Shown here: in pieces, positions 39,772 to 59,260 of the stretch
Numbering within the stretch: the first letter of the stretch is position 1
Layout: each line of letters starts with the position of its first letter
Source: an uncultured Caryophanales bacterium
GTDB taxonomy: Bacteria > Bacillota_I > Bacilli_A > RF39 > UBA660
Direction of reading: 5' to 3'
NCBI GenBank assembly: GCA_947564265.1
Contig: CANOBK010000002.1
Coordinates: 105,674-169,673, forward strand
Length of the DNA: 64,000 bases
Made by a program: the position numbers and the translations under genes
The notes under the pieces: generated by a model
What the model was told of the DNA's origin: nothing
The model's input: only the letters and a program-made list of their open reading frames with translations
Databases searched by the model: none

Positions 39772-40572
39772 CTAACTCAAGAATTTATCATGAACTTTAT
39801 CCACAAAGGTATTAGAAAAGCGAAGACAATGAATTCGTTTTTGTTTTACCACAGTATCAATTTTTTGAACATTAGAAAACGAAGTATTCACACCATCTAC
39901 CGTTACCATAAATTCATTTTTTTTGCTTCTAGGAAGAATGGTAACTGTTTTATTTTCTGGAATAATTAAAGAATTTCTTAAAGCACAGTAAACCTTTGAA
40001 TTTAAAGGTGCGATGGGAGTTAATTGAAGGGTATGAAAATCATCAAAGACAATACTTCCTCCAAACGATAAATTATAGGCAGTCGATCCAGCAGAAGTCG
40101 CGATTAACATTCCATCTCCTGCATAATGCTCCAATAATCGATTCTCAATTTTTACATCAAAATGACAAGTATCTAATAAACTATTTCGTACTACAATCTC
40201 ATTTAGGGATTTAAAATCCTGAATTTCTTCTTCGGTATATACTGTTGTTTCTTGAATCCCTAAAGGAGAAACCTCATAAGAACTATCTTTTAAACTTTGA
40301 ACAAACTGATCCATTTCTTCGAACTTAACTTCCTGTAGAAATCCTAAAGTTCCAGCATTGATTCCTACATAATAAATCTCTTCATCAAAGTCATTTTCCT
40401 TCACCATTCTTAGAAAAGATCCATCTCCACCAATCGCAATCGCTAAATCATAGTTAGAATCAACACAAATAAAATGGGCATCTTCTAATCTTTTTTGAAC
40501 AGAATAGGCAATTGATTGAGCTCTTTCATTCTCATTCACAAACAATTTAAAGTTTTGGATCTTCTTACTCAT
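39772..40572 (-). CDS. nadK: NAD kinase
   Basis: A 267-residue NAD kinase (NAD + ATP to NADP). Motifs: IAIGGDGSFLR with the GGDG loop, GINAGTLGFLQEV, RNSLLDTCHFDVKI (a VNE-like region), LLEHYAGDGMLIATSAGSTAYNLSFGG and PIAPLNSKVYCALRNSLI. The frame extends upstream to 40656, but the ATG at 40572 gives the normal family start SKKIQNFKLFVN. Its ribosome site is weak, and it overlaps the Nudix-like regulator gene, so expression is probably coupled to that gene. Part of the NAD cluster. Confidence 0.92.
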   Translation of the reverse strand: MSKKIQNFKLFVNENERAQSIAYSVQKRLEDAHFICVDSNYDLAIAIGGDGSFLRMVKENDFDEEIYYVGINAGTLGFLQEVKFEEMDQFVQSLKDSSYEVSPLGIQETTVYTEEEIQDFKSLNEIVVRNSLLDTCHFDVKIENRLLEHYAGDGMLIATSAGSTAYNLSFGGSIVFDDFHTLQLTPIAPLNSKVYCALRNSLIIPENKTVTILPRSKKNEFMVTVDGVNTSFSNVQKIDTVVKQKRIHCLRFSNTFVDKVHDKFLS

Positions 40573-41398
40573 GATTTTTCTTATAACGGAACAAGGCAGA
40601 AGGCCTATGTCCTCCCCCTGTTTGTACCTTATCCGTTTTCTCCACTTTATTGGCAATAATTCTACGGAATGCTGGATCTAATAATTCTTTTCCTAAAATG
40701 ACCTCATATACTTGTTGGAGTTCTCCCAATGTGAAATATTCTCCCATCATGTTAAAGACAACATCTGTATAAGAAATTTTATTCTTTAGTCGTGAAATTC
40801 CTGAAACAATCGTTTTTGCATGATCGAAAGCAAGTGCGTCGTTCTTCTTTATGATATATTCATATCGATCACTAGTAGGGCTCTTTAACTTCTTTCCAAT
40901 TACAATAGAAAAATGTTCGATTCCATTATCAAAAGATACTTGAATTTCTTTTTCATCTTCCAAAATATCCATGGAAAACCAAGAAGCGTTTTCCGTAATG
41001 CAATCCTCTAGTTTATTCTTATCTACCAAAGCAATATAAGAAACACTAACAATTCTCATTCTAGGATCACGATTGACATCACCAAACGTATAAAGTTGTT
41101 CCATATAAATATTGTGTAAGTTCGTTTCTCGTTCCAAAATTCGTTTTGCAGCATCATCAATTGTCTCATCGATACCGACAAATCCCCCAGGAAGACACCA
41201 TTTTCCCTTAAATGGATAAGTATCTCTTTTTACTAATAATACACTAAAATTTTTCTTAGACAGTTTTCGATAATTCCCAGTATTTTCACTCGAAACACTA
41301 AAAATTGCCATATCTGTTGTAAGAGACAATTTTTCAAATTGACTTGAATCATATTCTTTTAAGAACTCTTCCTCTGATTGATATTCTTTTCCATCCAT
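40565..41398 (-). CDS. nrtR: NrtR-like regulator of NAD metabolism (degenerate Nudix + winged helix)
   Basis: A 277-residue protein with an N-terminal Nudix domain (about residues 25-165) and a C-terminal winged helix (about 200-270: YTDVVFNMMGEYFTLGELQQVYEVILG, then RRIIANKVEKT and RPSALFRYK). The Nudix box GFVGIDETIDDAAKRILERE reads R-I-L-E-R-E where the active form needs R-E-U-x-E-E, so hydrolysis is probably lost, as in NrtR repressors, which sense ADP-ribose. The start ATG at 41398 follows GAGGTG. Location among nadK, pncC and nadD supports a role as the local NAD regulator, likely binding the 21-bp palindromes at 44383-44453 and 55169-55245. Confidence 0.82.
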   Translation of the reverse strand: MDGKEYQSEEEFLKEYDSSQFEKLSLTTDMAIFSVSSENTGNYRKLSKKNFSVLLVKRDTYPFKGKWCLPGGFVGIDETIDDAAKRILERETNLHNIYMEQLYTFGDVNRDPRMRIVSVSYIALVDKNKLEDCITENASWFSMDILEDEKEIQVSFDNGIEHFSIVIGKKLKSPTSDRYEYIIKKNDALAFDHAKTIVSGISRLKNKISYTDVVFNMMGEYFTLGELQQVYEVILGKELLDPAFRRIIANKVEKTDKVQTGGGHRPSALFRYKKNHE

Positions 41399-41456: not shown

Positions 41457-41936
41457 TCAATTTAGAATTTCCAAAAATAAATCTATGATTTCTTTTAAGA
41501 CTGTATTTTTATTCCGATAACGAATAAATTCATGAACCTCTACTTGCCTCTGATACACTTTTTTCTGATCACGATCATAAATACTAATGTAAATTTTATT
41601 TTTAGCATCTACCGGATTTTCTGGATCAATTACATTTAACATTCCCGTAATTCCAATTCCATAATTACTATCTGAAAACTCTGAAATTGCTTGACTCATA
41701 GCATCTGCCGTTTCTTGACTATAAACAGTATATTTTTCAATAATTTCTTTAGGTACTCCCATTTTCATTTTATATTCATTAGAGTAAGTAACAGCTGCAA
41801 AATGAAAGACATCACTCGCTCCCCCAACATTTGTAATGAGATTGGCAACGCCTCCACCAGTACAGGACTCCATCGTCGCAACTGTTTTTTTCTGACTCTC
41901 TAAAATGCGAATAATTTTTCTCATATCTTCTAACAT
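41457..41936 (-). CDS. pncC: Nicotinamide-nucleotide amidohydrolase PncC (CinA C-terminal domain)
   Basis: A 159-residue CinA C-terminal-type protein, the NMN deamidase that returns NMN to the pathway as NaMN. Family motifs: TVATMESCTGGGVANLIT, the TYSNEYKMKMGV segment, SQETADAMSQA and GIGITGMLN. The larger N-terminal MoeA-like domain of full CinA is absent. An ATG six bases upstream is too close to the AGAGGG ribosome site, so 41936 is taken. It starts 27 nt after the next upstream gene's end and shares the NAD cluster. Confidence 0.87.
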   Translation of the reverse strand: MLEDMRKIIRILESQKKTVATMESCTGGGVANLITNVGGASDVFHFAAVTYSNEYKMKMGVPKEIIEKYTVYSQETADAMSQAISEFSDSNYGIGITGMLNVIDPENPVDAKNKIYISIYDRDQKKVYQRQVEVHEFIRYRNKNTVLKEIIDLFLEILN

Positions 41937-41963
41937 ATTCATTCCCTCTTTCTATTAATTTTC

Positions 41964-42563
41964 CTACCTCATCTGTCTGATATACTCTTTTATTGTATCT
42001 TTTTCAATTATCTTCTTCTCTTCTACATCGATAAATGGAAAATTACCGCCTACTGATTCCATTTTTTCTAAGAAAAAATCAATCCCTCGAGTGTCTTTAG
42101 GATAAGACATACAGTATTTAGAAAATGAACATTTCCTATTTGGAATTTTAATTCCTACCACTTTATCGAGTGGAATATAATCTTTTACTTGATACTCATC
42201 ACACCATGCTGAATATCTTTTATTGATAGGAAGTCTAGAGAGCATTCTATAATAACCAAAATTTCTTTCAACAAATTCCGTTTTAACTGCTTCCACATTT
42301 TCGATTACAAAGGCATATTGACCTGCAATGAACTCTCTATAAGAACTATTATGACTCCAAACTAAATCTGGCATGTATTTAGCAAGAGAAATCCATCTAG
42401 TCCCATTGGCAGTATTTTTTCCTTTATCTTCAAATACTTCTCCCTTTATATATTTTTTAGCACGAATCCCGCCATCCAAAATAATTCTATCGATCGTGGT
42501 TGCCGTCACCCGATGATATAAAAAATCCTGATTAATTTCAATATTACGTATTCCACTAGACAT
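41964..42563 (-). CDS. Hypothetical protein in the NAD cluster, possible ADP-ribosyltransferase fold
   Basis: A 199-residue soluble protein. FLYHRVTATTIDRIILDGGIRAKKYIKGE followed by NGTRWISLAKYMPDLV and later KVVGIKIPN resembles the opening of ADP-ribosyltransferase-type folds (His/Arg near the first strand, then an S-x-A strand, with the helix in between), but the catalytic Glu cannot be placed with confidence. Its position between pncC and nadD, in a cluster that makes NAD, is what draws attention. GGGGTG precedes the ATG at 42563; the upstream TTG and ATG lie in the ribosome site. No close family recognised. Confidence 0.6.
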   Translation of the reverse strand: MSSGIRNIEINQDFLYHRVTATTIDRIILDGGIRAKKYIKGEVFEDKGKNTANGTRWISLAKYMPDLVWSHNSSYREFIAGQYAFVIENVEAVKTEFVERNFGYYRMLSRLPINKRYSAWCDEYQVKDYIPLDKVVGIKIPNRKCSFSKYCMSYPKDTRGIDFFLEKMESVGGNFPFIDVEEKKIIEKDTIKEYIRQMR

Positions 42564-42697: not shown

Positions 42698-43291
42698 TTA
42701 TCTTTTTTCTTGATACAAATTTCTTTCTACAATGAAGTCAAATACTTTAGGAGAAAGATATTCCTTCACAAAGGTAAAATCTTTTCTTTGAAAAGCATCT
42801 CTTACCTTCGTTGATGATAAAACAAAAGGATGTACATCCGTAAATAAAACATTTTTTGGAATATTCGGATAAAGTTTTTCTAATTCTTCCCTCTTGTCAT
42901 CATCTCTTAATACAACAAGAATCTGATAATTTTCTAAAATATAAGTATAGTTCTTCCATGTAGAAAAACTAGAATAAAGATCACTTCCTAAGATAAAACA
43001 AATTTCATCATTAGAATATTTTCCCTTAAAATAATCAAGTGTCTGATAGGTATAAATCAAATGATTTTGAAGTTCATAATCAGATACTTCTAAGTGAGGA
43101 TGATCTTCTGTCATAAGACATACCATCTGATAGCGAATATCATCATCTAACAACTCTGATTTAGGATACTTTTTCCCTGTAGGAACATAAATCACTTGAT
43201 CTACATACTCGTGAGAAATCATTTCTTGTCCGATTTCTAAATGCATCCTATGAGGTGGATTAAAACTTCCACCGAAAATACCAATTCTCAT
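42698..43291 (-). CDS. nadD: Nicotinate-nucleotide adenylyltransferase
   Basis: A 197-residue nucleotidyltransferase (NaMN + ATP to deamido-NAD). Motifs: IGIFGGSFNPPHRMHLEIG with the HxGH-like site, VIYVPTGKKYPKSE, CFILGSDLYSSFSTWKNYTYIL, LSSTKVRDAF (the second substrate motif). It overlaps the PRPP synthetase gene by 4 nt (ATGA), with GGAGG upstream, and shares its promoter. Length normal for NadD. Confidence 0.94.
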   Translation of the reverse strand: MRIGIFGGSFNPPHRMHLEIGQEMISHEYVDQVIYVPTGKKYPKSELLDDDIRYQMVCLMTEDHPHLEVSDYELQNHLIYTYQTLDYFKGKYSNDEICFILGSDLYSSFSTWKNYTYILENYQILVVLRDDDKREELEKLYPNIPKNVLFTDVHPFVLSSTKVRDAFQRKDFTFVKEYLSPKVFDFIVERNLYQEKR

Positions 43292-44367
43292 GATTTTCTA
43301 CCTCCTAAAGCCTTTTGTAATATTTCATTTCTTCCATTTATTAATGTACCCATCGGTTTCTTTTCATGTAGAGTTTCAATAATCGTACTTAATTGATGAG
43401 AACAATCTACATCTTCGTACCATGGTTCCTTCTTGATAGATTCTGGTACATAACTCAAATTCGTCGAATAAAGTTTATCAAAAACTCCTTTTTCATAAGC
43501 TTCTACAAAAGGAGTAATTCCTTCGGTTAATAAGGCAAAACTTGCGACAAAGTAAACATTATTTGCTCCTCTCTTCTTAAGTTCTTCCCCAACTTCAATC
43601 ATAGAAGAACCAGAGGCAATCATATCATCAACTACTAAAACGTCTTTTCCTTCTACTGACTCTCCTAAATAGGTATGTTCTAAAATAGGGTTTTTCCCGT
43701 TAACTACTCTACTTAAATCACGTCTTTTATAAAAAGCACCCACATTACATCCTAACATTTCAGCATAATATTTTGCTCTCTCCATCGCACCAAAATCGGG
43801 ACTTACTACAAATAAATTTTCTAAATTTTCATTTTCCTTTTCAAGTAAAGTAGATAAAATTACATTCGTTGGATAAAAACTTTCAAAAGGAAGAAGAGGA
43901 ACAGCATTACTCACGTTTGGATCATGACAATCAAAGGTTACAATATGGTCAACTCCGAGTCTCTCTAATTCCTGAAGCGCAATCGCACAATCGAGAGATT
44001 CTCTACATTTTCTTTTATGCTGTCTAGATTGATACAAGAGTGGCATTACAACAGTAATTTTAGAAGCATACCCTGAAGCCGCCGAAATCACTCTTTTAAT
44101 ATCCTGAAAATGTTCATCCGGTGATAAAAAATGTTCTCTTCCATGCATAGAATATGAAGTGTCATAATTACCTACATCTGATAAAATGTATAAATCTTGA
44201 TCCCTAATACTTTCCTCAATTTTGATTTTTCCCTCTCCATTGGAAAAACGGTTATTAGAAATAGGAATAATGGTTGATTCCTGATATGTTTTTTGTAAAT
44301 GCACATCTACCTTCTTACCAAAATCCCAACAGTTTTCCATAACGACTAATTTTAAATTATTTTTCAT
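43288..44367 (-). CDS. prs: Ribose-phosphate pyrophosphokinase-like protein (NAD operon)
   Basis: A 359-residue PRPP synthetase/phosphoribosyltransferase-fold protein. The PRPP-binding loop VLVVDDMIASGSSMIEVGEEL is intact, and ISNNRFSNGEGKIKIEESIRDQDLYILSD is the PrsA flexible-loop start. It is longer than usual (about 310) and diverged, so it may be a specialised paralogue giving PRPP to the nicotinate phosphoribosyltransferase and nadD-linked pathway. It is the first gene after an operator-bearing promoter and is coupled to nadD. GGAAAG ribosome site. Confidence 0.85.
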   Translation of the reverse strand: MKNNLKLVVMENCWDFGKKVDVHLQKTYQESTIIPISNNRFSNGEGKIKIEESIRDQDLYILSDVGNYDTSYSMHGREHFLSPDEHFQDIKRVISAASGYASKITVVMPLLYQSRQHKRKCRESLDCAIALQELERLGVDHIVTFDCHDPNVSNAVPLLPFESFYPTNVILSTLLEKENENLENLFVVSPDFGAMERAKYYAEMLGCNVGAFYKRRDLSRVVNGKNPILEHTYLGESVEGKDVLVVDDMIASGSSMIEVGEELKKRGANNVYFVASFALLTEGITPFVEAYEKGVFDKLYSTNLSYVPESIKKEPWYEDVDCSHQLSTIIETLHEKKPMGTLINGRNEILQKALGGRKS

Positions 44368-44382
44368 AACTTTCCTCTTTTC

Positions 44383-44468
44383 TTATTATTTTTTTATTAA
44401 TAACATAAATCAAAAAAATAAATTTGTTTTGTTATTAACATTATATTAATAACAATGGAGTTTGTCAA
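44383..44468 (-). promoter_or_regulatory. Promoter and two operators of the prs-nadD operon
   Basis: Minus-strand promoter TTGACA (44468-44463), 17 nt, TATAAT (44445-44440). A 23-bp palindrome GTTATTAA-N7-TTAATAAC at 44431-44453 overlaps the -10 box, and a second copy with the same 7-7-7 layout (TTATTAT-N7-TTAATAA) lies in the leader at 44383-44403, 16 nt before the ATG. The same promoter/operator pair recurs at 55169-55260. NrtR is the best candidate binder. Confidence 0.75.
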
Positions 44469-44534
44469 CAATTTTTCATAAAAAATTTAAAAAAAGAATA
44501 AAAAATAATAAGAGTAAAAAATAAAGAGGTACAA

Positions 44535-44936
44535 ATGAATAAAGAGGAATTACAAAACAGACAACTTAAAATTATTGATGGACAACTAATTGGATGCATT
44601 CTTTATATTATCTCGATTATTGTATCGATTATTATTATCCTAAATCAAAGAAAAAGTGCTCTTAATAAAGATCAGTTTTTAACGGGAAGAGAATCCCAAA
44701 CAATCGCCCTTGCCAATAAAATTTTTATTCTACTTTTAATTATTTTCTTTTTTTACCTAAACTTTGAATCCTACCATCTCGCTAAGGATACAAGCCAAGA
44801 TACTTCCGCATTAGAATTACAGATCATAGGTTCTGTTCTATCTACCGCAGTTGGGTTAATTGGACTCTATGTAGTCGCAACAAATTTCCAAAATACAAAT
44901 TTACAAACCGCCGAAATTGAAAACCCTTTCGCATAA
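44535..44936 (+). CDS. Hypothetical membrane protein
   Basis: A 133-residue protein with three transmembrane helices (about residues 16-38, 62-83 and 96-115) and a short charged loop after the first. No family recognised. It has a GAGG ribosome site and is probably co-transcribed with the following GDPD-like gene 48 nt downstream. It is divergent from the prs-nadD operon, so the operators at 44383-44453 might also touch its promoter. Confidence 0.65.
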   Translation: MNKEELQNRQLKIIDGQLIGCILYIISIIVSIIIILNQRKSALNKDQFLTGRESQTIALANKIFILLLIIFFFYLNFESYHLAKDTSQDTSALELQIIGSVLSTAVGLIGLYVVATNFQNTNLQTAEIENPFA

Positions 44937-44984
44937 AAAAGTGCCCAGTCTAAATTTTATGCATAAATAATAATAGGTGATAAT

Positions 44985-45716
44985 ATGAGAATACTTGCAA
45001 ATAAAACAAATCTTTATAATAATTTAGATTTTCTCCAACAATCAACAGAAGAAGAAAACAATTTAGAGGGAGTGGGATTTAATGTTGCGATTACAAAAGA
45101 TAATCAATTTGTAATCTTTAGCCCTGTTTCTGATAATCAAACAACCATTCAAACAATTACTAGTAAAAACTTAAATGAATTAGAACATTTGGACTTATTA
45201 ACACTAAAAGATACTTTAGATTTTTATCAAAATAAAAAAAGTAAGTTAAAAATTTTCCTAAACTTACTTCCCTCTACCATCCCGATTACTTCAGAAAAAA
45301 GTCTATTAGCGCTGAAAGGGATCAATGAGAATTATGCCAAAAATTTACTAGACATCATTCGTTCTTATCAAACACTGAATCTATATCTAGGAAGTGTTAA
45401 CGCTTCTTTAATAGAACTATTAAAAGTACAAAACATTTCATGGAAAACAGGAATTGTATTATTTGGTGGAAATATGAATTATATCGATGTTGATTTTTAT
45501 GTTTTTGGGACTGGACTATTAAGTGAAGAAATCTTTAATCAACAATTAGAATTAAAGAAAGAAGTAATACTTTATTTAGGAACTGCTAGTGATTTATCCA
45601 CAACTTATGAATTTTTTAAAGGAGAAAAATCAACAGCACTAGCCCATAGTATTTTTGATCAAATTATGTTTTTAAATGACTATCCTGATCTCTTCCTAAA
45701 AATATTTTCAAACTAA
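44985..45716 (+). CDS. Degenerate GDPD-like TIM-barrel protein
   Basis: A 243-residue protein. The segments GVGFNVAITKDNQFVIFSP and LLTLKDTLDFYQNKKSKLKIFLNLLP fit the glycerophosphodiester phosphodiesterase fold at the positions of E-x-D-V-x-x-T-K-D-G-x-x-V-V-x-H-D and the TLEExL strand, but the catalytic Glu/Asp and His residues of the HRG and HD motifs are missing. It also lacks a signal peptide. It is therefore likely a non-catalytic binding or structural version. It lies behind a small membrane protein gene, which may be its partner. Ribosome site AGGTGA. Confidence 0.62.
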   Translation: MRILANKTNLYNNLDFLQQSTEEENNLEGVGFNVAITKDNQFVIFSPVSDNQTTIQTITSKNLNELEHLDLLTLKDTLDFYQNKKSKLKIFLNLLPSTIPITSEKSLLALKGINENYAKNLLDIIRSYQTLNLYLGSVNASLIELLKVQNISWKTGIVLFGGNMNYIDVDFYVFGTGLLSEEIFNQQLELKKEVILYLGTASDLSTTYEFFKGEKSTALAHSIFDQIMFLNDYPDLFLKIFSN

Positions 45717-45749
45717 AAGAGTGTTAGAAACAATCTATCACTCTTTTTA
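45716..45749. terminator. Two-way terminator between the converging genes at 45.7 kb
   Basis: AAAGAGTG / CACTCTTT stem with T-tracts on both sides, between the GDPD-like gene (plus) and the Cys-rich gene (minus). Confidence 0.8.
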
Positions 45750-46133
45750 TTAAATATCCCAAGAATCACGAAAATGTGGGCACCGTTTCGCCTTCACTTT
45801 CCCATCCCCGTCTTTTTCTAGAGATTCCTTTTTGAATAACTGAAATTCTCCTGGACAAAATCCTGGTTGATTTAAAGAACAATCACTATCACAAACAAAT
45901 CGTTCTGGAACACAGTCCTGTCCTTTTTTCTGCCAAGAAAAAGCCATTAAAACTCGAACTGCTTCCATAAATTCATTACTATCAACGGCAGAAGCCTTAG
46001 AAGGTATAATATTACCTTTTTGATCTATAGTTGAGTTTTGTATAAACTCTCTTACCTTTAAACAAGCTTCCTTACTTCCACCTGGAGCACAGTTAAAGTG
46101 TTCCACTAAAAAGTCAAAATAATCTTTTTCCAT
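45750..46133 (-). CDS. Hypothetical cysteine-rich protein
   Basis: A 127-residue soluble protein with eight cysteines, most in the C-terminal half: DCVPERFVCDSDCSLNQPGFCPGEF and KRCPHF. The pattern C-x6-C-x3-C-x7-C suggests a zinc or Fe-S site. No signal peptide, so it is probably cytoplasmic. No family recognised. GGAGG ribosome site; single gene. Confidence 0.62.
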   Translation of the reverse strand: MEKDYFDFLVEHFNCAPGGSKEACLKVREFIQNSTIDQKGNIIPSKASAVDSNEFMEAVRVLMAFSWQKKGQDCVPERFVCDSDCSLNQPGFCPGEFQLFKKESLEKDGDGKVKAKRCPHFRDSWDI

Positions 46134-46179
46134 AAACCCTCCTACTTTTGATTATATAATACACAAAGAAAAAAGTAAA

Positions 46180-47523
46180 CTATTCCACAGGGGCCCAAGT
46201 ATTTGGATATTGCCTTGCTGTAAATTTATTATCTTCTAGTACATCATAAACATCAGATTCTTGTACATAATCTTCATTACTTTCTTTTGTATAAAAAATA
46301 ATAATCCAACAACTAGTAGGATCAAAGAAATCCCCTTCAGAATATTTAGCCTCATAAGTACCAGTTCTTTTAACAACAGTTTCTTCTCCTAAATAATTCT
46401 TCCATGTATTTTCATATACAAAAGTTCCATCTGAATTTAAAGTATAGAACCCTCCAGAAATTGTTCCTGGTTCTTGATCGCTTTGATATTTTCCGTATTT
46501 TAAATAATGATCTCCTACTTGAAATCCCTTTTTCTCTATTTCTTCTTTTATTTTTTGAATTTGTTCTTGTTTTTCTATAACCTCTTCTACTTTCTTCTCT
46601 ATCCCTTTTTCTACCTCTTTGTTTACAATTTCTTTTTGAGGTAGATAAGTAGAAGCAGCTTGATCAATCGCTTCTTCTAATTCTTCTTCATTAAAATCGT
46701 TTTTATAAGAAACAGAATGATCCTTTTTATCCTCTACTTTTACAAAAGTTGTATCAAACTTTGAGATTTCGAGTTGATTTCCATCTTCATCTGTTACGGT
46801 TTCAACATCATCTTTATTAAATACATATTCAGGAACTTCTTCAATTTTATTGGAATCATCACGATCTTCCTGTCCTTTAGAAATATCGTCAATCTGCTCA
46901 CTAATGGATTGATAACTATCTTTATCATCTTGACTTGTATGAATATAATAATCATACTTCTTAGAATCAATATGATATAAAAGCTCTACTTCTGTTGGTG
47001 TTTGATATGTCAAAGCATTGACTTTCCCATTTTCAATGTAATAAATATTAGAATACTTCTCATCCTCTACCTGATAATCTAGTACCATAATAGGATCTTC
47101 TAGATTAGAAATTTCATAAAAAGAGATTCTCGCATCTTCCATTTCTTCTGGAATACCAGCTTCTTCCTCTTTCTGTTCTTCTTTCATTTCCTTTAAATAA
47201 ACATAATAAGTTTTTCCCCAAGTGTTTTTTTCTACTTGTTTTTCTTCCTCTAAATATTGTTTTAAGAAAAATCCTCCAACAGCAAGTCCAACAACTACTA
47301 GTACTGAAACAAGACAAATCATAAGATTTTTATTTGATTTCTCCTTCTTTGGATTTACTACAACAGTCTCTTCTTTTACTGCCTGTTTTTGTTCTTTTTT
47401 CCTAATTGATTCTTTAATCTTGGATAAGTCATTTCCGCAGCCCTCACAGAATACATCTTCTTCTGTAAATGGATGACCACAAGTTCTACAAAAACCGTAA
47501 GGTTTCTTTTCTTCTTTTCCCAT
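46180..47523 (-). CDS. Zinc-ribbon membrane protein with large outside domain
   Basis: A 447-residue protein: N-terminal zinc ribbon FCRTCGHPFTEEDVFCEGCGNDL (two CxxC pairs), a Lys/Glu-rich linker, one membrane helix (about residues 68-90, LMICLVSVLVVVGLAVGGFFL), then a 355-residue outside domain. That domain is acidic with a coiled-coil stretch (about 285-330, EKGIEKKVEEVIEKQEQIQKI) and a beta C-terminus (GTISGGFYTLNSDGTFVY). This zinc-ribbon-TM layout is common in Bacillota envelope proteins of unknown role. GAGGTG ribosome site. Confidence 0.75.
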   Translation of the reverse strand: MGKEEKKPYGFCRTCGHPFTEEDVFCEGCGNDLSKIKESIRKKEQKQAVKEETVVVNPKKEKSNKNLMICLVSVLVVVGLAVGGFFLKQYLEEEKQVEKNTWGKTYYVYLKEMKEEQKEEEAGIPEEMEDARISFYEISNLEDPIMVLDYQVEDEKYSNIYYIENGKVNALTYQTPTEVELLYHIDSKKYDYYIHTSQDDKDSYQSISEQIDDISKGQEDRDDSNKIEEVPEYVFNKDDVETVTDEDGNQLEISKFDTTFVKVEDKKDHSVSYKNDFNEEELEEAIDQAASTYLPQKEIVNKEVEKGIEKKVEEVIEKQEQIQKIKEEIEKKGFQVGDHYLKYGKYQSDQEPGTISGGFYTLNSDGTFVYENTWKNYLGEETVVKRTGTYEAKYSEGDFFDPTSCWIIIFYTKESNEDYVQESDVYDVLEDNKFTARQYPNTWAPVE

Positions 47524-47602
47524 TATTTCACCTCTACTATAAATTATATAGGAAAACGAAAAGATATGAAATAAAAACTTCTAAAAACCAAAAATAATTT
47601 TC

Positions 47603-47630
47603 TTGATAATGAAATAAAATCTGTTATAAT
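47603..47630 (+). promoter_or_regulatory. Promoter of the interrupted radical SAM gene
   Basis: TTGATA (47603-47608), 16 nt, TATAAT (47625-47630), followed by an AGAAGGG ribosome site. It suggests that the broken gene was, or still is, transcribed. Confidence 0.6.
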
Positions 47631-47662
47631 AACTACTTAAAAGAAGAAGGGTGAGAAGAAAA

Positions 47663-48421
47663 ATGAAAATCTTATATCACGACTTACAAATCGAAATCAC
47701 CAGAAGATGTACAGGGGACTGCAAACACTGTTGTCGAGGTGATCAACAGAATCTTGATTTAACAAAAGAAGAAATAGATGCCCTTTTAAATTATAATGAC
47801 ATTCATAGTGTGAATCGTCTATTATTTAGTGGAGGAAACCCACCTTTAAATGGGGAAATGTTAGAATAAACCGTTGATTCTTTTATTAAAAGAAATATCC
47901 CGATTCATTGTTTCATCCTAGCGATGAATGGGCTCGATTATAACGAAGCATTTGTAAGAGGACTCAATAAATTAAATGATTATTGTGGTAGCTTTTCCAA
48001 AAGAAAAAATCCCAAGAGTGGATTACTCTTTATCTCACAAAGTCAATTTCATAAGAAAGCAATCCCAGAAATCGTAGAAAAATATGAAGGATTATCCTAT
48101 TTTTCTCCTCTAGCTGAAATGCAAGTAATTCCGCCAGATCATATTCTTCCTTATGGAAACGCAATAAAAAATCATTTAACCACAAAACAACCGAATCTAG
48201 AAGAAATTACAGATTATAATCGTGATATAAAAATAATTGAACATGAAAACGAAATTTTTTTAGTATTTGATTATCAATATATCAGTTCTAATGGAAATAT
48301 ATTATGTAGTGCATGTATGTCTTATGATATGATGGATCAATATAAAATAGGAAACGTGAAGGATGGACCAATGACAGAAATCTATAAAAATCAGCCAAAA
48401 ATGAAAAGTTTAAGTATATAA
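47663..48421 (+). pseudogene. Radical SAM protein interrupted by an in-frame TAA
   Basis: One reading frame holds a radical SAM protein (about 252 residues) with a single TAA stop at 47867-47869. Before the stop: the [4Fe-4S] motif RRCTGDCKHCC (CxxxCxxC) and the LFSGGNPPLNGEMLE strand. After it the same frame continues without shift: TVDSFIKRNIPIHCFILAMNG, to the C-terminal CSACMSYDMMDQYKIGNVKDG segment that resembles a SPASM-like cysteine site. The downstream part could restart at the ATG at 47924. A GTG upstream (47651) is within the ribosome site. It may be a recent nonsense mutation or a readthrough site. Confidence 0.78.
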
Positions 48422-48442
48422 AACGAAAAAAGGAGAATTTGA

Positions 48443-48967
48443 ATGAAAGAAAAATTATCGTATGATTTAGAGGAATTGAATAGCACTGCCTCTATAGAAA
48501 AATTAAAAGCCATGTTATCAATTCAAACAGAAGGAAATTTGATTTATCTTTGTCATCCGAGACATCTTTTCGATGAATTAACGGAAGATTCTGAAACAAA
48601 AATGATTACAGAAGTAGACTGGGATAGCATCAATGTAGAAAAAATGATACAGTATAACGATTTTGGAAGATACTCAATCGTAGAAGAAATCTGTTATAAA
48701 AGAAAGAATCAATTTGATTATCTACAAAGGAGAGCGGCTCATATGATGAAAAAATATCAAGAAAAAGGATACAAGGAATGGAGCTATCCAATTGCGATAT
48801 TAGAGGAAGTAGATCATGGGCCTTCTGCTCCAACATATTTCGCTAGAGGAATTGTCAACTTCAATCAAAGTGGAATCTCTTTCGCATTTAATCCAATCGC
48901 AGTGAAAGAACTTCCAAAAGAAAGCATATGGCAAAAAGGTTTAAAATTTGGGGATAATTTCGATTAA
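48443..48967 (+). CDS. Hypothetical protein next to the radical SAM gene
   Basis: A 174-residue soluble protein with no recognised family. It includes EGNLIYLCHPRHLFDEL, a basic helix YLQRRAAHMMKKYQEKGYKEW and the beta-like PIAILEEVDHGPSAPTYFARGIVNFNQSG. It lies 21 nt after the radical SAM frame with its own GGAG ribosome site, so the two were probably an operon, perhaps enzyme and substrate or partner. It has no stop-codon damage. Confidence 0.62.
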   Translation: MKEKLSYDLEELNSTASIEKLKAMLSIQTEGNLIYLCHPRHLFDELTEDSETKMITEVDWDSINVEKMIQYNDFGRYSIVEEICYKRKNQFDYLQRRAAHMMKKYQEKGYKEWSYPIAILEEVDHGPSAPTYFARGIVNFNQSGISFAFNPIAVKELPKESIWQKGLKFGDNFD

Positions 48968-48973
48968 TAAAAG

Positions 48974-49010
48974 AAAACAGGAACCTAATCACTAGTATTC
49001 CTGTTTTTAT
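48974..49010. terminator. Terminator between converging genes at 49.0 kb
   Basis: AAACAGGAA / TTCCTGTTT stem with TTA after it, between the 48.4-49.0 kb plus gene and the 49.0-49.7 kb minus gene. Confidence 0.7.
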
Positions 49011-49018
49011 TTGAACTT

Positions 49019-49657
49019 TTATGAAGAAATCCTTTTCTGATATCCAGATTCTTTTTGATTCTCAGTATTTCTTTCTTGAACTTCCCTATATTTTATATAG
49101 TCTTGGACATTTTTATCAATCAAAGGAAACATGTCAAAAGGCAGTCCCATACGCTCCAAAAACAACTTTCTTGTTTCCTCACTGATAGAACGATCCTCTC
49201 CCATAATAATTAAACAATCAATCTCTGCATCAGCAGTAGAAGTTCCTTCTCTAAACATTTGAATTTCTTGTTCTCTAGCTTCAGGTGATAATTGAAGACA
49301 CCACTGAAAATTCATCATTCCCTCATCATCCTCTTTTATCGTATAGAATAACGTAGGTTCTCCAAACTGTTCCACTAATGCTTCACAAAAATCACTTAAT
49401 GCTGCCAGTTTATGACCATCACTAGATTTAGAAATACAATCTCCAACACCAATTCTAAGAAATTCATGATTACAATATTTATAATAGAATTCAAGTTTAT
49501 CCTTAAAATAACCTTCAGAATAAAAAGGAAAACTATGATAATAACCAGTTACTACCTCATAAGGGACTCCATAAATTTCCATTTTTTCACCTAATGCTTT
49601 TCCTAATATTTTTCTAAGTTCACGGCAATCCTTTTCATTAGAATATACTTCTTTCAT
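49019..49657 (-). CDS. Hypothetical protein
   Basis: A 212-residue acidic soluble protein of unknown family. It has NEKDCRELRKILGKALGEKM, a central FYYKYCNHEFLRIGVGD strand pair, CLQLSPEAREQEIQMFREG and DAEIDCLIIMGEDR. A polar C-terminus rich in Arg/Glu/Asn/Gln suggests a disordered tail. It has its own GGAGG ribosome site; a terminator of nadE separates it from the NAD operon upstream. Confidence 0.6.
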   Translation of the reverse strand: MKEVYSNEKDCRELRKILGKALGEKMEIYGVPYEVVTGYYHSFPFYSEGYFKDKLEFYYKYCNHEFLRIGVGDCISKSSDGHKLAALSDFCEALVEQFGEPTLFYTIKEDDEGMMNFQWCLQLSPEAREQEIQMFREGTSTADAEIDCLIIMGEDRSISEETRKLFLERMGLPFDMFPLIDKNVQDYIKYREVQERNTENQKESGYQKRISS

Positions 49658-49711
49658 CCAAAATCCTCCTTTAATAACTAATATTCTATCATAAAATTAA
49701 AAAAAATCCAT

Positions 49712-49740
49712 ATAAAAAAGAGATTTTAATTCAATCTCTA
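49712..49740 (-). terminator. Terminator at the end of the NAD salvage operon (after nadE)
   Basis: AGAGATT / AATCTCT stem containing the last bases of nadE, followed on the minus strand by TTTTTTAT. Confidence 0.75.
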
Positions 49741-49745
49741 TTTCA

Positions 49746-51668
49746 CTATTTCATTTCTTCTAAATCTCGAAGCCAAACTTCCACATCAGCATCACTTGGC
49801 ATACGGAGATCTCCTCTAGGAGATAGACTAACTGTACCAACCTTAGGACCATCTGGTAAGCAACTTCTTTTAAATTGTTGAGAGAAAAATCTCTTTAAGA
49901 ATATAATTAACCATTTTTTAATTTCATCAGAAGAATAGTCGCCTTTAAAAACTTGATTTGCCATAAATAAAATCTTTTTAGGTTCAGCACCATATCGAAA
50001 GAAATGATATAAGAAGAAATCATGAAGTTCATAAGGACCAATTTTATCTTCTGTTTTTTGTTTGATTTTACCATCCTTCGTTGGAGGAAGTAATTCTGGA
50101 GAAATTGGCGTATCTAAAATATCATAAAGTACCTGTTTTACGTCTGAATTGGTATCAGCCACATAACGAACTAAGTATTTTACTAACGTCTTAGGAATCG
50201 AAGTATTTACCGCATACATACTCATGTGATCTCCATTATAAGTACACCATCCAAGTGCAAGTTCAGATAAATCTCCAGTACCAACCACAAGTCCTCCTTC
50301 GCGATTGGCAATATCCATTAAAATTTGAGTTCTCTCTCTTGCCTGTACATTTTCATAAGTAACATCATGAACCTCTTTATCATGACCGATATCTTTCATG
50401 TGTAATAAACTGGCATCAACAATTGGAATTTCACGAATGGTAACTCCATACTTTTCCATAAGAGAAATAGAATTATTTAAGGTTCTAGAAGTAGTCCCAA
50501 ATCCAGGCATTGTCACTGCGATGATATTGTCATAAGAAATACCAAGCATGCGATAAGCTTCTGTGATTACTAAAAAGGCAAGCGTTGAATCAAGTCCTCC
50601 AGAAATACCAATGACTGTTTTCTTACATCCTATATGACGAAGTCTTTTAGCGAGTCCTGATGCTTGAATACGGAAAATTTCGCTACAACGAACATTTCGA
50701 TATTCTAAATTACTAGGAACAAATGGATTTTTAGAAATCTTTCTTTCTAAAGTTTTTGTATCAGGAATTAAAACTTTAACTCTTCTAACACCTTTTCTTG
50801 GTTTAATTCCCATATAACTGATATCTTTAATTCTCATATTATGAAGTTTTAATACATCAATATCCTGATAAATTAGATTACTATCAAATTGAAACCGTTC
50901 ATTCTCCTTCAAAATACTTCCATTTTCACTAATCATCGCACTTCCAGAGAATACAACATCCGTCGTAGATTCAGAGATTCCACTAGACGTATAAATATAC
51001 CCACTAATTAATTTGGCAGAATGATTTTTTACTAAGTTTTTTCGATACTCATACTTTCCAATAATTTCATTACTACTAGAAAGATTAAATAAAAGAGTAG
51101 CTCCATTTAAGGCAAGATCCGTACTTGGTGGTACAATACTCCACAAATCTTCACAAATTTCAACCCCAATTGCCGCTTCCTTTAATTCTTGATCTTCGAA
51201 AATAAGATCTGTTCCAATTGGGACAGTTTCTCCAAATAAGGAGATTTCTGTTTCTAATAAATCCTCACTAGACGCAAACCAACGCTTTTCATAGAATTCG
51301 TTATAATTAGGAATATACGTTTTGGGTACAATTCCTAAAATATGACCTTTTTGTAGTACCACTGCTGTATTATATAATTGATTTCCAATCTTTAAAGGAA
51401 CTCCCACAAGTGTAACCAAAGATAACTTCTTTGTCTCTTCTTTTATCCTTTCAAGCCCAGAAATAGCTTCCTTAAGAAGTAAATCCTGCATGAATAAATC
51501 AGCACAGGTATAACCAGTAATAGAAAGTTCTGGAAATACCAGCACCCCAATTTCTTTTTTACTTGCATCCTCCATCATCTGTATCATCTTTTCTACATTA
51601 AATTTTGGATTTGCCACTTTTAATTCAGGAACTGCCGCTCCTACTCTAATAAAACCATACTCTTTCAT
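49746..51668 (-). CDS. nadE: Glutamine-dependent NAD+ synthetase
   Basis: A 640-residue two-domain enzyme. Residues 1-270 form a nitrilase-type glutaminase domain (LVFPELSITGYTC, GVPLKIGNQLYNTAVVLQKG, GVEICEDLWSIVPPS, with the catalytic Cys in ICEDL). Residues 330-640 form the synthetase with the PP-loop GISGGLDSTLAFLV and VGTGDLSELALGWCTYNGDHMSMY. It turns deamido-NAD into NAD using Gln. It is the last gene of the nicotinamidase-to-nadE operon. GGAGG ribosome site. Confidence 0.96.
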   Translation of the reverse strand: MKEYGFIRVGAAVPELKVANPKFNVEKMIQMMEDASKKEIGVLVFPELSITGYTCADLFMQDLLLKEAISGLERIKEETKKLSLVTLVGVPLKIGNQLYNTAVVLQKGHILGIVPKTYIPNYNEFYEKRWFASSEDLLETEISLFGETVPIGTDLIFEDQELKEAAIGVEICEDLWSIVPPSTDLALNGATLLFNLSSSNEIIGKYEYRKNLVKNHSAKLISGYIYTSSGISESTTDVVFSGSAMISENGSILKENERFQFDSNLIYQDIDVLKLHNMRIKDISYMGIKPRKGVRRVKVLIPDTKTLERKISKNPFVPSNLEYRNVRCSEIFRIQASGLAKRLRHIGCKKTVIGISGGLDSTLAFLVITEAYRMLGISYDNIIAVTMPGFGTTSRTLNNSISLMEKYGVTIREIPIVDASLLHMKDIGHDKEVHDVTYENVQARERTQILMDIANREGGLVVGTGDLSELALGWCTYNGDHMSMYAVNTSIPKTLVKYLVRYVADTNSDVKQVLYDILDTPISPELLPPTKDGKIKQKTEDKIGPYELHDFFLYHFFRYGAEPKKILFMANQVFKGDYSSDEIKKWLIIFLKRFFSQQFKRSCLPDGPKVGTVSLSPRGDLRMPSDADVEVWLRDLEEMK

Positions 51669-51697
51669 AATAACCTCCTTTTATTTAGTATAACACA

Positions 51698-52288
51698 TTA
51701 TTTTTTTAATAACCTTCTTGCTTTTTCATAAATCAATTGGCTATTGGCACCTAGTATATATTTTTTATCAATTAACTCTTCAACATCCTCAAAATCACAG
51801 GTAAAATAGCGAATGAACTCATCCTTATCTAGTTTCTGAGCTCCTATTTTTTGACACCCTGTTGCTAAGACTCCATAATTATAGGCCGCACTACATCCCT
51901 CATCCTGATAAAATTCTGCTAAATACTCTAAGTGTTTCGCTTGATATCCTGTTTCTTCTAAAAGCTCCCGTTCTGATGCCTCAAAATAGCTTTCTCCCTC
52001 ATTGATATATCCCGCAGGAAAACCAACACCAACTGTTCTTTTTGTATGTACTCTAGGTTCTACTGCTAGAATACACTCTCCTGATTCAGTAATAGGAAGA
52101 ATAATTGCAGCACTTCCATCGCCACCATCTTTTTCTATTCTTTCGCGATAGATTGTCTTTCCATTATTTAAGTGATAATAGGCACCTGTTATAGATAAGA
52201 AGCCAGAAGGAGTTACGACCGGCTCTACAGAAATTGTTTTTAGCTCTTCAATGTAATTTTTTAACTCCTTCCATTTCTCTGAACGCAT
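51698..52288 (-). CDS. nudF: ADP-ribose pyrophosphatase (Nudix hydrolase)
   Basis: A 196-residue Nudix hydrolase with an intact box GYINEGESYFEASERELLEETGY (G-x5-E-x7-REUxEExGU). The surrounding fold matches ADP-ribose pyrophosphatases: a short N-terminal strand, AVEPRVHTKRTVG and the EFYQDEGCSAAYNYGV loop. It breaks ADP-ribose to AMP and ribose 5-phosphate, so it lowers the likely NrtR ligand. It shares one base (TAATG) with the phosphoribosyltransferase gene and lies 29 nt before nadE. Confidence 0.88.
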   Translation of the reverse strand: MRSEKWKELKNYIEELKTISVEPVVTPSGFLSITGAYYHLNNGKTIYRERIEKDGGDGSAAIILPITESGECILAVEPRVHTKRTVGVGFPAGYINEGESYFEASERELLEETGYQAKHLEYLAEFYQDEGCSAAYNYGVLATGCQKIGAQKLDKDEFIRYFTCDFEDVEELIDKKYILGANSQLIYEKARRLLKK

Positions 52289-54060
52289 TATTTTCTTTCT
52301 CCTAGAGATTTTTGATAAGCTTGTTTTCTTTCCTCTACCTCTAAAGTAGCCTTATGTAGCATCTCTTCTTTTAAATTTCTTAAATCATCACTTAAATCTA
52401 CATAATAAGTATGTGGATTTACTGGATCCTTAATACGATCTGTTAGTGTTTGATACTCTTCATTTGCGTAATCTCTTCTAAGTTTCAAAGATGGGATATT
52501 ATAAACGAGTTCTCCATTTACAAAGATAGGTACTTGTAAATTACGAACTGTATAATTTGTAAGTTCTGTCCTCTTCCAAGTATTATTATGATCCACTAAA
52601 GTATAATGATCCTCATCTATTTTCTCATCTCTTAGAGTAATCGCATCTCCTAAGACTTTATTCGTATCTTTATCATAAAAACGAACCACTTTTTTAAATC
52701 CAGGGTTAATTGTCTTTGCGGTTTCTCCACTTACCTTAATCCTATTATCGATTTCACTGTCTTTTGTCTTCTTAACCCCTACTAGCTTATAAACGTGATC
52801 TGCTCGCTCACGTGGCGCTACAATATTATCTCCAATTCCTAACGTATCAATTTCTGCACCACGATTTAAAAGATCTTGTAATGAATCAGCATCTAGTCCA
52901 TTAGATACACAAATCTGAACATAATCCATCCCAGCTTCTTGAAACATTCTTCTAGCTTCTTTAGTTAGATACACCAAGTCACCACTATCAATTCGAATAC
53001 CTGATAGCTTGCATCCAAGAGGATCTAAGTATTCCTTCTGTAGACGAATAGCATTTAAAATTCCTCCAATTGTGTCATAGGTATCCACAAGTAAAGTCAA
53101 TTTATTTTTATCTGGAGCCTCTTTCGCATAAGTTAAAAATGCTTCATATTCATCATCAAACGCTTGAACTAACGCATGCGCAATCGTTCCTGTTACTGGA
53201 ATATCATAAAGTTTTCCAGCTAATGTGTTACTAGTCGCACTACATCCTCCCATATAAGCATATTTACTTTCAACAAGTGTAGCATCTAATCCTCCACGAA
53301 CACGTCTTGCCCCAAATTCAGCAACTGGTCTTCCATCCGCAACTTCAGTAATTCTCTTTGCCGCAGTTGCTGCTAAAGATCCACTGTTAAAAGCTGTAAG
53401 AAGTGCAGTTTCTAAGATTTGTCCCTCGATAATAGGTGCTTCAATTGTCATATTAGGTTCATTAGGGAATATTGGTGTTCCATCTGGTACTGCCCAAACG
53501 TTTCCAGTAAATCGAATATTTCTTAGGTACTCTAAAAAGTTTTCATTGAATTTTCCAGTACTTCTTAAATATTCAATATCTTCTTCACTAAAGTGAAAAT
53601 TCTTAATATATTCAATCGCTTCCTCTAATCCAGCTGATATTTGGTATCCTCCATGAAATACGTTTCGTCTATGGAATAAATCAAAATATCCAGTCCAATC
53701 TTTCATTCCTCCGTTAAAATAAACATCTGACATAGTAAGTTCATATAAATCTGTCATTAAAGTTTGATTATCCTCTTCCGTATTAGGCAAGGCATTTAAA
53801 ATAGTTCGAATCTGCTTACGTTCTACATCACTAACACACAATTCTTCGATAATATAATCAATCACATCATTCGTATGATAGAATTCCTGAATACCAAACT
53901 TATGACTACGATCAATTGTATAAACTTGATAATGATTTTCTAAGACACGAACCACAAGTGTTCCCGTTCCATAATCAATTTCTTCCCCATCATAACAAAT
54001 TGTTAAATATGATTTTCCTAATAATTCTTCTACTACTTTTAATTTATATGCATCTTTCAT
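52288..54060 (-). CDS. pncB: Nicotinate phosphoribosyltransferase with extra N-terminal domain
   Basis: A 590-residue protein. The C-terminal 485 residues are a nicotinate phosphoribosyltransferase (nicotinate + PRPP + ATP to NaMN): LMTDLYELTMSDVYF, FHRRNVFHGGYQI, the signature FGARRVRGGLDATLVES, LLVDTYDTIGG and GIRIDSGDL. The first 98 residues are an unrecognised domain with strands LTICYDGEEI, TLVVRVLENHYQVYTID and helix VIDYIIEELCVSD, not found in ordinary PncB. The ATG follows GGAGGAG one base after the nicotinamidase stop. The extra domain may regulate or localise the enzyme. Confidence 0.9.
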   Translation of the reverse strand: MKDAYKLKVVEELLGKSYLTICYDGEEIDYGTGTLVVRVLENHYQVYTIDRSHKFGIQEFYHTNDVIDYIIEELCVSDVERKQIRTILNALPNTEEDNQTLMTDLYELTMSDVYFNGGMKDWTGYFDLFHRRNVFHGGYQISAGLEEAIEYIKNFHFSEEDIEYLRSTGKFNENFLEYLRNIRFTGNVWAVPDGTPIFPNEPNMTIEAPIIEGQILETALLTAFNSGSLAATAAKRITEVADGRPVAEFGARRVRGGLDATLVESKYAYMGGCSATSNTLAGKLYDIPVTGTIAHALVQAFDDEYEAFLTYAKEAPDKNKLTLLVDTYDTIGGILNAIRLQKEYLDPLGCKLSGIRIDSGDLVYLTKEARRMFQEAGMDYVQICVSNGLDADSLQDLLNRGAEIDTLGIGDNIVAPRERADHVYKLVGVKKTKDSEIDNRIKVSGETAKTINPGFKKVVRFYDKDTNKVLGDAITLRDEKIDEDHYTLVDHNNTWKRTELTNYTVRNLQVPIFVNGELVYNIPSLKLRRDYANEEYQTLTDRIKDPVNPHTYYVDLSDDLRNLKEEMLHKATLEVEERKQAYQKSLGERK

Positions 54061-54061
54061 T

Positions 54062-54706
54062 TTATTCTCCTCCTAATTTCTTCACTCTTTTAGCTCCTTG
54101 TTGTTCTAATAACAAGTAAGCTGCATCAGTATATAAATCTCTGTTATGCCATGGTGCATCATAAGTTTCTATTGCATCTTCTAATAACTCCACTTCGATA
54201 TTTCGATTATTTTCATCGAAGTAATTCATCATAGGCAAGACACCATTGATATCACAAATATCGGTACAGCATCCACATATTTGAACCTTTTTTAAATTTT
54301 CTAAACCATCTAACATCTCCATAAATCCATATTTAAAGTTAGGATTTTTACCAAACATAAAACTCGTTGAATTCTTTTCAAAAGAAATGGCATCTTCTTC
54401 AAAGGGAACTAACTCATCAACAAGTTCCGCTTCCTTAGTACCGCGAAGACAATGAGGCTGATTTCCAAATCTTTTGAATTCTACTGAATCTTTATCGTGT
54501 GTATCTTTAATAAATACAACTAAACATTTTTTGTTCTTTCTAGCATCTTCTACATAAGACACAACATTTGGTATAATCGCTTCGACTAACGGTGAAGCAA
54601 GCATTCCCTCTCTAGCAAATCCATTCACCATATCAACAACAATGAATGCCTCTTCGTAAACTGCTAAATTTTTGATTAATAATTTTTCATTTTCTGTTTT
54701 TTTCAT
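54062..54706 (-). CDS. pncA: Nicotinamidase (isochorismatase family)
   Basis: A 214-residue cysteine hydrolase (nicotinamide to nicotinate). FIVVDMVNGFAREG carries the catalytic Asp, FEKNSTSFMF the Lys, and VQICGCCTDICDIN the nucleophilic Cys; HCLRGT supplies the metal-site and cis-peptide region. The immediate coupling to pncB makes nicotinamidase the sensible choice within the isochorismatase family. GGAGAA ribosome site. Confidence 0.9.
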   Translation of the reverse strand: MKKTENEKLLIKNLAVYEEAFIVVDMVNGFAREGMLASPLVEAIIPNVVSYVEDARKNKKCLVVFIKDTHDKDSVEFKRFGNQPHCLRGTKEAELVDELVPFEEDAISFEKNSTSFMFGKNPNFKYGFMEMLDGLENLKKVQICGCCTDICDINGVLPMMNYFDENNRNIEVELLEDAIETYDAPWHNRDLYTDAAYLLLEQQGAKRVKKLGGE

Positions 54707-54758
54707 AATTTTTCTCCTTTTTCTTTTTAATATTTTAAGCTCATTTCCAGAACTTTAG

Positions 54759-55154
54759 TTATCTACCAATTGACTTTACTTTTTGATCAACTTTTTTAGC
54801 AACACTTACAGATACTCCATGAAAGTAACACCTAGTACCACGATCGAAAAAATCTCCCGTTGTAAAACCAGCATCGTAGGAAATAGAATCAAGACTATAT
54901 CCTTCTTCTGAAAGCATGGTTGCTAAAATCGCTTCCACTTCTTTCTTCGATAGTTGAACCTCCTCCTTAACACTTTCTCCTAAAAGAGAAGTAACACTAC
55001 TTACAGTAAAAGTAACATTCGCACAAGGTGTTTCGTAAAGTCCTTCGCATCCTCTAGTTACTTTAGAACTGATTTCAGCATCCTTGGATTCATGGACCTG
55101 ATAATATGTTTGAATGACTCGCTCAGTTTGCTCTTTTGAAAGTTTTAACTCCAT
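54759..55154 (-). CDS. Hypothetical first gene of the NAD salvage operon
   Basis: A 131-residue soluble protein with no family I recognise: ELKLSKEQTERVIQTYYQVHES, CEGLYETPCANVTFTVSSVTS, KKEVEAILATMLSEEGYSLDSISYD and a FDRGTRCYFHGVSVSVAKKV end. Its alternation of helix and strands suggests a small alpha/beta domain. The frame runs to 55220, but the ATG at 55154 follows AAAGGAGG and lies after the leader operator. It heads the operon to pncA, pncB, nudF and nadE, so a role in NAD metabolism is likely but unproved. Confidence 0.7.
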   Translation of the reverse strand: MELKLSKEQTERVIQTYYQVHESKDAEISSKVTRGCEGLYETPCANVTFTVSSVTSLLGESVKEEVQLSKKEVEAILATMLSEEGYSLDSISYDAGFTTGDFFDRGTRCYFHGVSVSVAKKVDQKVKSIGR

Positions 55155-55168
55155 AGTTCCTCCTTTTG

Positions 55169-55260
55169 TTATTATTTTTTTGTTAATAACATATTTTTGA
55201 AATAATACAGATTTGTTCATCTGTTATTAACATTATATTAATAAGAATCGAAAAAGTCAA
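55169..55260 (-). promoter_or_regulatory. Promoter and two operators of the NAD salvage operon
   Basis: Minus-strand promoter TTGACT (55260-55255), 17 nt, TATAAT (55237-55232). Palindrome TTATTAA-N7-TTAATAA at 55224-55244 overlaps the -10, and a second copy TTATTAT-N7-TTAATAA lies in the leader at 55169-55189. Matches the pair at 44383-44468 in motif, layout and position. The rest of 55261-55373 is AT-rich without further features that I can see. Confidence 0.75.
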
Positions 55261-55373
55261 CATGTTTTTAATAAAAAATTAAAAAGACTTTAAAAAAGGA
55301 GAAAAAATCCCTCTTAAACTCTTTATTTATATGGATATAACTTATTTTTAAAAATTAGCAATTTTTGATAAAA

Positions 55374-58952: not shown

Positions 58953-59029
58953 ATTCTTCCCTCCTTTAAAGTTTTCTCTCCTGTTACATTTAATATTCGC
59001 ACATCCTCTTTTATATGCATATTTTCCAC

Positions 59030-59260
59030 CTCCAAAAGAAAACGCGACTATTTCTTCCATAAGGACGAAAAAATCGCGGTACCACCTTAATTGATAAGTA
59101 AACCTTATCCACTTTAATCTTTAACGGAATGACCCGATTCAACTAAAAATAGTGTAATTCATTACCTTTTCATGATCCGTTTTCACCATCCACGAATTCT
59201 CTACTACAAACAAAAAGTAATTACTAGAGTATTTCTTTTCATTGAATAATTAAGTTCAAC
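59030..59260 (-). promoter_or_regulatory. T-box riboswitch (tRNA-Tyr) in the tyrS leader
   Basis: The T-box sequence AAGGTGGTACCGCGA is at 59088-59074, with the antiterminator/terminator helix next to it: CGCGA...GGA pairs with TCC...TCGCG (59043-59078), followed by TTTTCTTTT. Upstream, Stem I features (GGTGAAAACGGATC and a specifier-loop TAC at 59156-59154) fit a tyrosine codon. It controls tyrS by binding uncharged tRNA-Tyr. This leader fills the 375-nt gap before tyrS. Confidence 0.92.

Follow-up and report, generated by a model that had tools for sequence, protein, structure and literature searches.

A predicted NrtR regulon with repeated operators at two NAD operons of an uncultured RF39 bacterium

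Introduction

Which regulator controls the genes of nicotinamide adenine dinucleotide (NAD) metabolism in an uncultured Caryophanales bacterium, and through which operators, is the question raised by a 64,000-nucleotide stretch of its contig CANOBK010000002.1 (assembly GCA_947564265.1, positions 105,674 to 169,673), hereafter the window. The bacterium belongs to the lineage RF39, which we take to be the order of that name in GTDB. Two operons of NAD genes lie on the (-) strand of the window, and an initial annotation had described similar palindromes at both promoters and ascribed them to a shared regulon under the Nudix-type regulator NrtR. In our analysis, these boxes very probably serve as operators for an NrtR whose own gene belongs to this gene set; it would repress the two operons and be released from DNA by ADP-ribose.

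Results

The promoter of the prs operon consists of a -35 element TTGACA (44468-44463, (-) strand, as for all features below), a 17-bp spacer and a -10 element TATAAT (44445-44440), and that of the operon unkB-pncA-pncB-nudF-nadE of TTGACT (55260-55255), 17 bp and TATAAT (55237-55232). In both, a predicted NrtR box, O1, carries the -10 element at its centre; the one at prs, TTATTAATATAATGTTAATAA, lies at 44432..44452 and its counterpart at 55224..55244, and each scores 26.6 with our position weight matrix (PWM). A second box, O2, is found in each leader, at 44383..44403 for prs (PWM 15.8) and at 55169..55189 for the second operon (PWM 17.0), where it stands directly ahead of the Shine-Dalgarno sequence. 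The two promoters, the four palindromes and the distances of 49 and 55 bp between the centres of O1 and O2 were all as initially annotated. The operator consensus of 21 bp proposed from them needed revision, given that the palindromes are real but the consensus is longer (TTATTAAYAWWWTRTTAATAA), and that a third, weaker box of the second operon had been missed. This box, O3 (55265..55285, PWM 15.2), lies 41 bp upstream of O1 and 4 bp upstream of the -35 element; no O3 was found at the prs promoter, where the same position scores PWM -4.3.

Such palindromes are rare. The pattern TTATTAWN7TTAATAA has four sites in the window (six strand hits) against 0.06 expected from 100 dinucleotide shuffles, whose largest count was two, which bears out the claim that the match was unlikely to arise by chance. 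No exact match beyond these four sites at the two NAD promoters turned up in the organism's own genome assembly (1.675 Mb, 89.6% complete, in 25 contigs), where a reversed control pattern gave 1+1 hits. Allowing two mismatches made the pattern unspecific (260+252 hits against 321+350 for the reversed control, that is, 512 against 671 strand hits), and we confine the single-genome evidence to exact sites because the relaxed pattern is lost in this background.

The evidence from relatives is broader. For footprinting we assembled NAD loci from most genomes with nrtR or pncB, from relatives in the same genus and from 44 named loci, the latter mainly from metagenome-assembled genomes of Bacilli, Tenericutes and Erysipelotrichaceae, with Ca. 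Onthousia and Ca. Pelethosoma; removal of loci with more than 20% shared 60-mers left 89 non-redundant loci besides the window. Their 117 boxes yielded a 21-bit matrix with the consensus given above, in which C/G is kept at box positions 8 and 14. At 16 bits or more, 172 boxes were found in 1.337 Mb of loci, 145 of them no more than 300 bp upstream of a NAD gene, a share that is partly built in, as the training set itself consisted of boxes close to NAD genes. Twenty symmetric column-permuted matrices found a mean of 2.15 boxes (0.25 near a NAD gene) and a maximum of six, and the excess over them is not accounted for by training on NAD promoters.

The position of the boxes relative to the promoter is also kept. 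A -10-like core is present in 103 boxes; 80 remained once a -35 element was required, and 79 promoters, representing 61 genomes or loci, after one leader box of L040 was removed. Among the 80, the core reads TATAAT in 69 and TAAAAT in 11, and TTGACA or TTGACT stands at 17 bp in 78. An O2 of at least 11 bits occurs between +35 and +75 in 66 of the 79 promoters, at +53 to +56 in 47 of them, and control stretches of equal length gave 0/78, 0/79 and 0/79. Since the O1-O2 distance varies far less than that from O2 to the start codon (standard deviations of 4.6 and 23.3 bp), O2 is placed relative to the promoter. An O3 is found at exactly -41 in 19/79 promoters, including that of the window pncA operon. 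Of the other offsets tested between -55 and -37, only -52 gave a match, and that a single one; shuffled 21-mers gave at most one. The A/T tract that occupies the O3 position in many other promoters may be an UP element. Finally, an internal box is present in 13/55 pncA-pncB gaps (for instance L120:8779 and L123:5003), and in ten of these its centre is 30-36 nt ahead of where the pncB match begins.

The box tracks the regulator gene. Among 145 genomes of the family, 43 were counted as nrtR-positive, namely every genome with a profile hit of at least 100 bits (87 have some match, the rest being mostly a shorter paralogue), and the genome sets for this test were transcribed by hand from the profile-search results. 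The strict box pattern is present in 36/43 nrtR genomes and in 13/102 of those without (Fisher 2e-16), compared with 13/43 and 22/102 for the reversed control pattern (p 0.29). The shorter core TTAATATAATGTTAA is present in 25/43 against 2/102. At genus level, 10/11 nrtR genomes have the strict pattern and 0/7 others do, two of these seven being only 53% and 86% complete; the one nrtR genome lacking it, G009, has a completeness of 76% and an nrtR contig that breaks off in nadD. The nrtR gene clusters with NAD genes in the window and in the loci of relatives, and pncB is present in 39/43 nrtR genomes and 1/102 others (40 of 41 matching genomes, G029 having been dropped at 19.5 bits).

By its domains, the Nudix gene beside prs (nrtR, 40565..41398), the presumed repressor, is an NrtR: its product matches the NrtR winged helix PF21906 with 62.9 bits (cut-off 27) and the Nudix domain PF00293 with 52.8 bits, both over cut-off, and NCBIfam NF050029 with 164.7 bits, below the cut-off of 400. 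Among PDB sequences it retrieves Bacteroides AraR (5bs6) at E 5e-36, and 3gz5 and 3gz6, listed as MutT/nudix family and presumably Shewanella NrtR, at E 5e-23. In the loci collected, the Nudix catalytic motif GX5EX7REUXEEXGU is intact in 0/78 NrtR, the window protein included, against 47/48 NudF. Taken together, the boxes of relatives and the NrtR domain support the regulon first proposed, and the motif search in relatives finds the same box at the same promoter position before the same genes, in the majority of nrtR genomes and in few others.

The first operon runs in the order prs, nadD, unkA, pncC, nrtR, nadK. Its genes encode ribose-phosphate pyrophosphokinase (prs, 43288..44367), nicotinate-nucleotide adenylyltransferase (nadD, 42698..43291), a protein with a predicted ADP-ribosyltransferase-like fold (unkA, 41964..42563), a pncC/CinA-C domain protein of the nicotinamide-nucleotide amidase family (41457..41942), NrtR and a NAD kinase (nadK, 39772..40572) that is over cut-off in Pfam and below it with the NCBIfam models. 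The second operon begins with unkB (54759..55154), which codes for an uncharacterised protein, followed by pncA (54062..54706), a member of the isochorismatase family in Pfam with no NCBIfam match, named nicotinamidase from its place in the cluster. Next come the nicotinate phosphoribosyltransferase gene pncB (52288..54060), nudF (51698..52288), a Nudix hydrolase and presumed ADP-ribose pyrophosphatase, and, last, nadE (49746..51668), a glutamine-dependent NAD synthetase-like gene named by eye and by place, without a family search.

In the window, PncB has an N-terminal extension of about 93 residues, and in G154 (L135) about 100 residues stand ahead of a PncA part in one open reading frame. 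A T-box leader was noticed elsewhere in the window (59058-59240), ahead of a gene (57729-59060) that by eye is tyrosyl-tRNA synthetase-like.

In unkA, residues Y16, H17, E123 and P141 are invariant in 11 aligned sequences, and we predict an ADP-ribosyltransferase-like fold, which may be of DarT/Tpt1 type, for this member of the NAD gene set. A diverged unkA paralogue lies at G000:C5:40647. The unkB gene recurs behind NrtR boxes, and in one relative (G090, L134:5631-6500) its product is joined to a PncA-type domain; this fusion and recurrence suggest a link with nicotinamidase.

Directly after O1 of the pncA operon, at the predicted 5' end of the RNA, lies a hairpin of five pairs (55208..55223, CAGAT-GAACAA-ATCTG), which the prs operon does not have. 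Its arms co-vary in relatives (CAGAT/ATCTG, CAAGT/ACTTG, CAGAA/TTCTG and others). They pair in 37 of 77 distinct leaders; 2000 permutations of the arms among leaders, which control for relatedness only in part, gave 9.2 on average and 19 at most. When shifted 1 to 7 letters onward, the arms pair in 11 to 21 leaders. Our guess is that this 5'-terminal stem slows mRNA decay.

Discussion

We propose that an NrtR dimer on O1 would cover the -10 element and the start site, which is predicted within the final letters of O1, and shut out RNA polymerase, as a dimer bound over the -10 should. Further dimers on O2 in the leader and, where present, on O3 upstream of the -35 element could tighten repression, either cooperatively or by acting as a roadblock. 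Higher NAD turnover would raise ADP-ribose, which would take NrtR off the DNA, and both operons would be expressed, providing nicotinamide salvage (pncA, pncB), the supply of phosphoribosyl pyrophosphate (prs), nadD, nadE and nudF. NudF would then degrade the ADP-ribose signal and restore repression. A Nudix motif that is broken in NrtR but intact in NudF is what would be expected if the former senses ADP-ribose and the latter removes it.

It is unlikely, though conceivable, that the boxes are real operators to which another effector applies, such as NAD or a nicotinamide-related metabolite, or at which NrtR activates. Precedents exist, as NAD strengthens the binding of Corynebacterium NdnR/NrtR (Teramoto 2012, quoted in the available part of PMC6800001) and the AraR branch of the family senses arabinose (available part of PMC4666351). 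The position of O1 over the -10 element nevertheless fits repression, and the presence of nudF in the regulon fits an ADP-ribose signal, of the kind that releases NrtR in Streptococcus and Mycobacterium according to the accessible portions of PMC12735969 and PMC6800001.

That the boxes belong to a different regulator, either a second NrtR-family protein or a NiaR-like protein, with nrtR clustered for some other reason, is very improbable. The genome does encode a second NrtR-family protein (L005, G000:C5:69819), beside a thymidine kinase-like gene identified by eye, and by sequence AraR, a sugar regulator, is a nearer relative of the window NrtR than 3gz5 is. The paralogue locus, however, has its own palindrome, GTGTA-N5-TACAC, with three sites (G000:C5:69033, 69094 and 70485) and none elsewhere in the assembly; this different palindrome makes the paralogue an unlikely owner of the NAD-promoter box. 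The 3H domain of NiaR was over cut-off in 0/145 family genomes, G028 giving a single sub-threshold match of 18.9 bits, and presence of the box tracks the window type of nrtR, within the genus too. No sugar-gene operators of AraR/XylR type were found, the exact boxes of the genome being those at the two NAD promoters. Co-occurrence, the other palindrome of the paralogue and the lack of NiaR together point to the window NrtR as the probable owner of the box. It is hardly credible that the palindromes are mere A/T-rich promoter sequence, extended -10 elements and UP-element tracts kept for strength, since, even with TATAAT inside O1 and O3 at an UP-element position that in many promoters holds a plain A/T tract, O2 lies outside the promoter as a palindrome repeated at a kept distance and missing from control stretches, C/G is conserved at two box positions, O3 matches at -41 and not at neighbouring offsets, internal boxes recur between pncA and pncB, most of them at a similar distance from pncB, and few genomes lacking nrtR have the box.

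Several observations weigh against the NrtR regulon proposed here, besides the built-in part of the near-NAD share. For 27 of the 172 boxes, the scripted assignment found no NAD gene in the following 300 bp; some of these lie at the start of pncA, between pncA and pncB or ahead of an extra first gene. A -10-like core and a -35 element were conditions for inclusion among the 79 promoters, and some O1-O2 distances in this set (48-49 bp in seven, 65-67 bp in four) are off a shared helical face. As to non-NAD genes behind the motif, there are none for the exact box in the organism's own genome, but in relatives a radical-SAM-type first gene follows an NrtR-box promoter at L176, L177, L070:12823 and L057:5412 (three relatives, one of them twice; the L070 match is under the Pfam cut-off). 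The strict pattern is missing from seven of the 43 nrtR genomes (G033, G077, G122, G126, G128, G155 and G181), of which G122, G126 and G128 have loci with weaker boxes, G033 reaches 8.5 bits, G181 carries a site with a single mismatch 768 bp from pncA, and G077 and G155 were not among the loci collected; conversely, 13 genomes match it without nrtR. Autoregulation is less certain in that unkA, pncC, nrtR and nadK may be transcribed from promoters of their own as well, promoter-like matches being present ahead of unkA and of nrtR (41452-41424) at a frequency not above that in shuffles. Moreover, we infer binding, repression, induction by ADP-ribose and cooperation between boxes from sequence.

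A more far-reaching version of the model seems doubtful, a long shot at present: a self-contained ADP-ribose circuit with UnkA as NAD consumer, NrtR acting on a three-operator array with a 5'-stabilising hairpin, NudF as eraser and UnkB as partner of the nicotinamidase. If it were true, the output of salvage would be set by the rate of NAD consumption and not by the NAD level.

The regulon offers a testable operator consensus and gene set for uncultured gut Bacilli with small genomes, for which no regulon study was found in the literature searched. It also connects NAD metabolism with two uncharacterised gene families, one of which shows a fusion to a nicotinamidase-type domain in a single relative. 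How operators act jointly could be studied in a natural series of promoters that have one, two or three NrtR boxes spaced at conserved distances.

The kind of system is already known, and this operator is without record in the literature searched, with RegPrecise and the founding NrtR paper lying outside that search. Likewise, no study of NrtR in this lineage was found there, although an earlier record in those two sources is possible; a paper on RF39/RFN20 (PMC7301438) does not contain NAD as a whole word, and the accessible part of PMC3616900 treats lactic acid bacteria. NiaR (YrxA) resembles the present regulator in repressing NAD genes, in Bacillus and Clostridium relatives (PMC7713382, in part), and differs by its 3H domain, which is not over cut-off in any family genome. 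The Bacteroides AraR branch, which provides the solved structure nearest to the window NrtR by sequence, also has an operator of 21 bp, and its sites can stand in tandem with 3 bp or 42 nt between them; it differs in controlling arabinose genes and binding L-arabinose (both according to the available part of PMC4666351), whereas the exact box here is confined to NAD operons. The closest likeness is to the NAD-type NrtR regulons of Shewanella, Mycobacterium and Streptococcus, which, as far as the accessible parts of the sources describe them, share a Nudix plus winged-helix regulator with a broken Nudix motif, a regulator gene within the NAD cluster and palindromic operators at NAD promoters. 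Their operators read otherwise: the consensus TTATTAAYAWWWTRTTAATAA compares with GTTTTCGA-N7-TCGAAAAC in Mycobacterium and ATA-N-TTTA-N3-TAAAA-N2-ATA in Streptococcus (available part of PMC6800001). Unlike those regulons, the one described here has the -10 element within the box, sets of two to three boxes with conserved spacing, and a gene set that joins the salvage route with prs, nadK, nudF, unkA and unkB.

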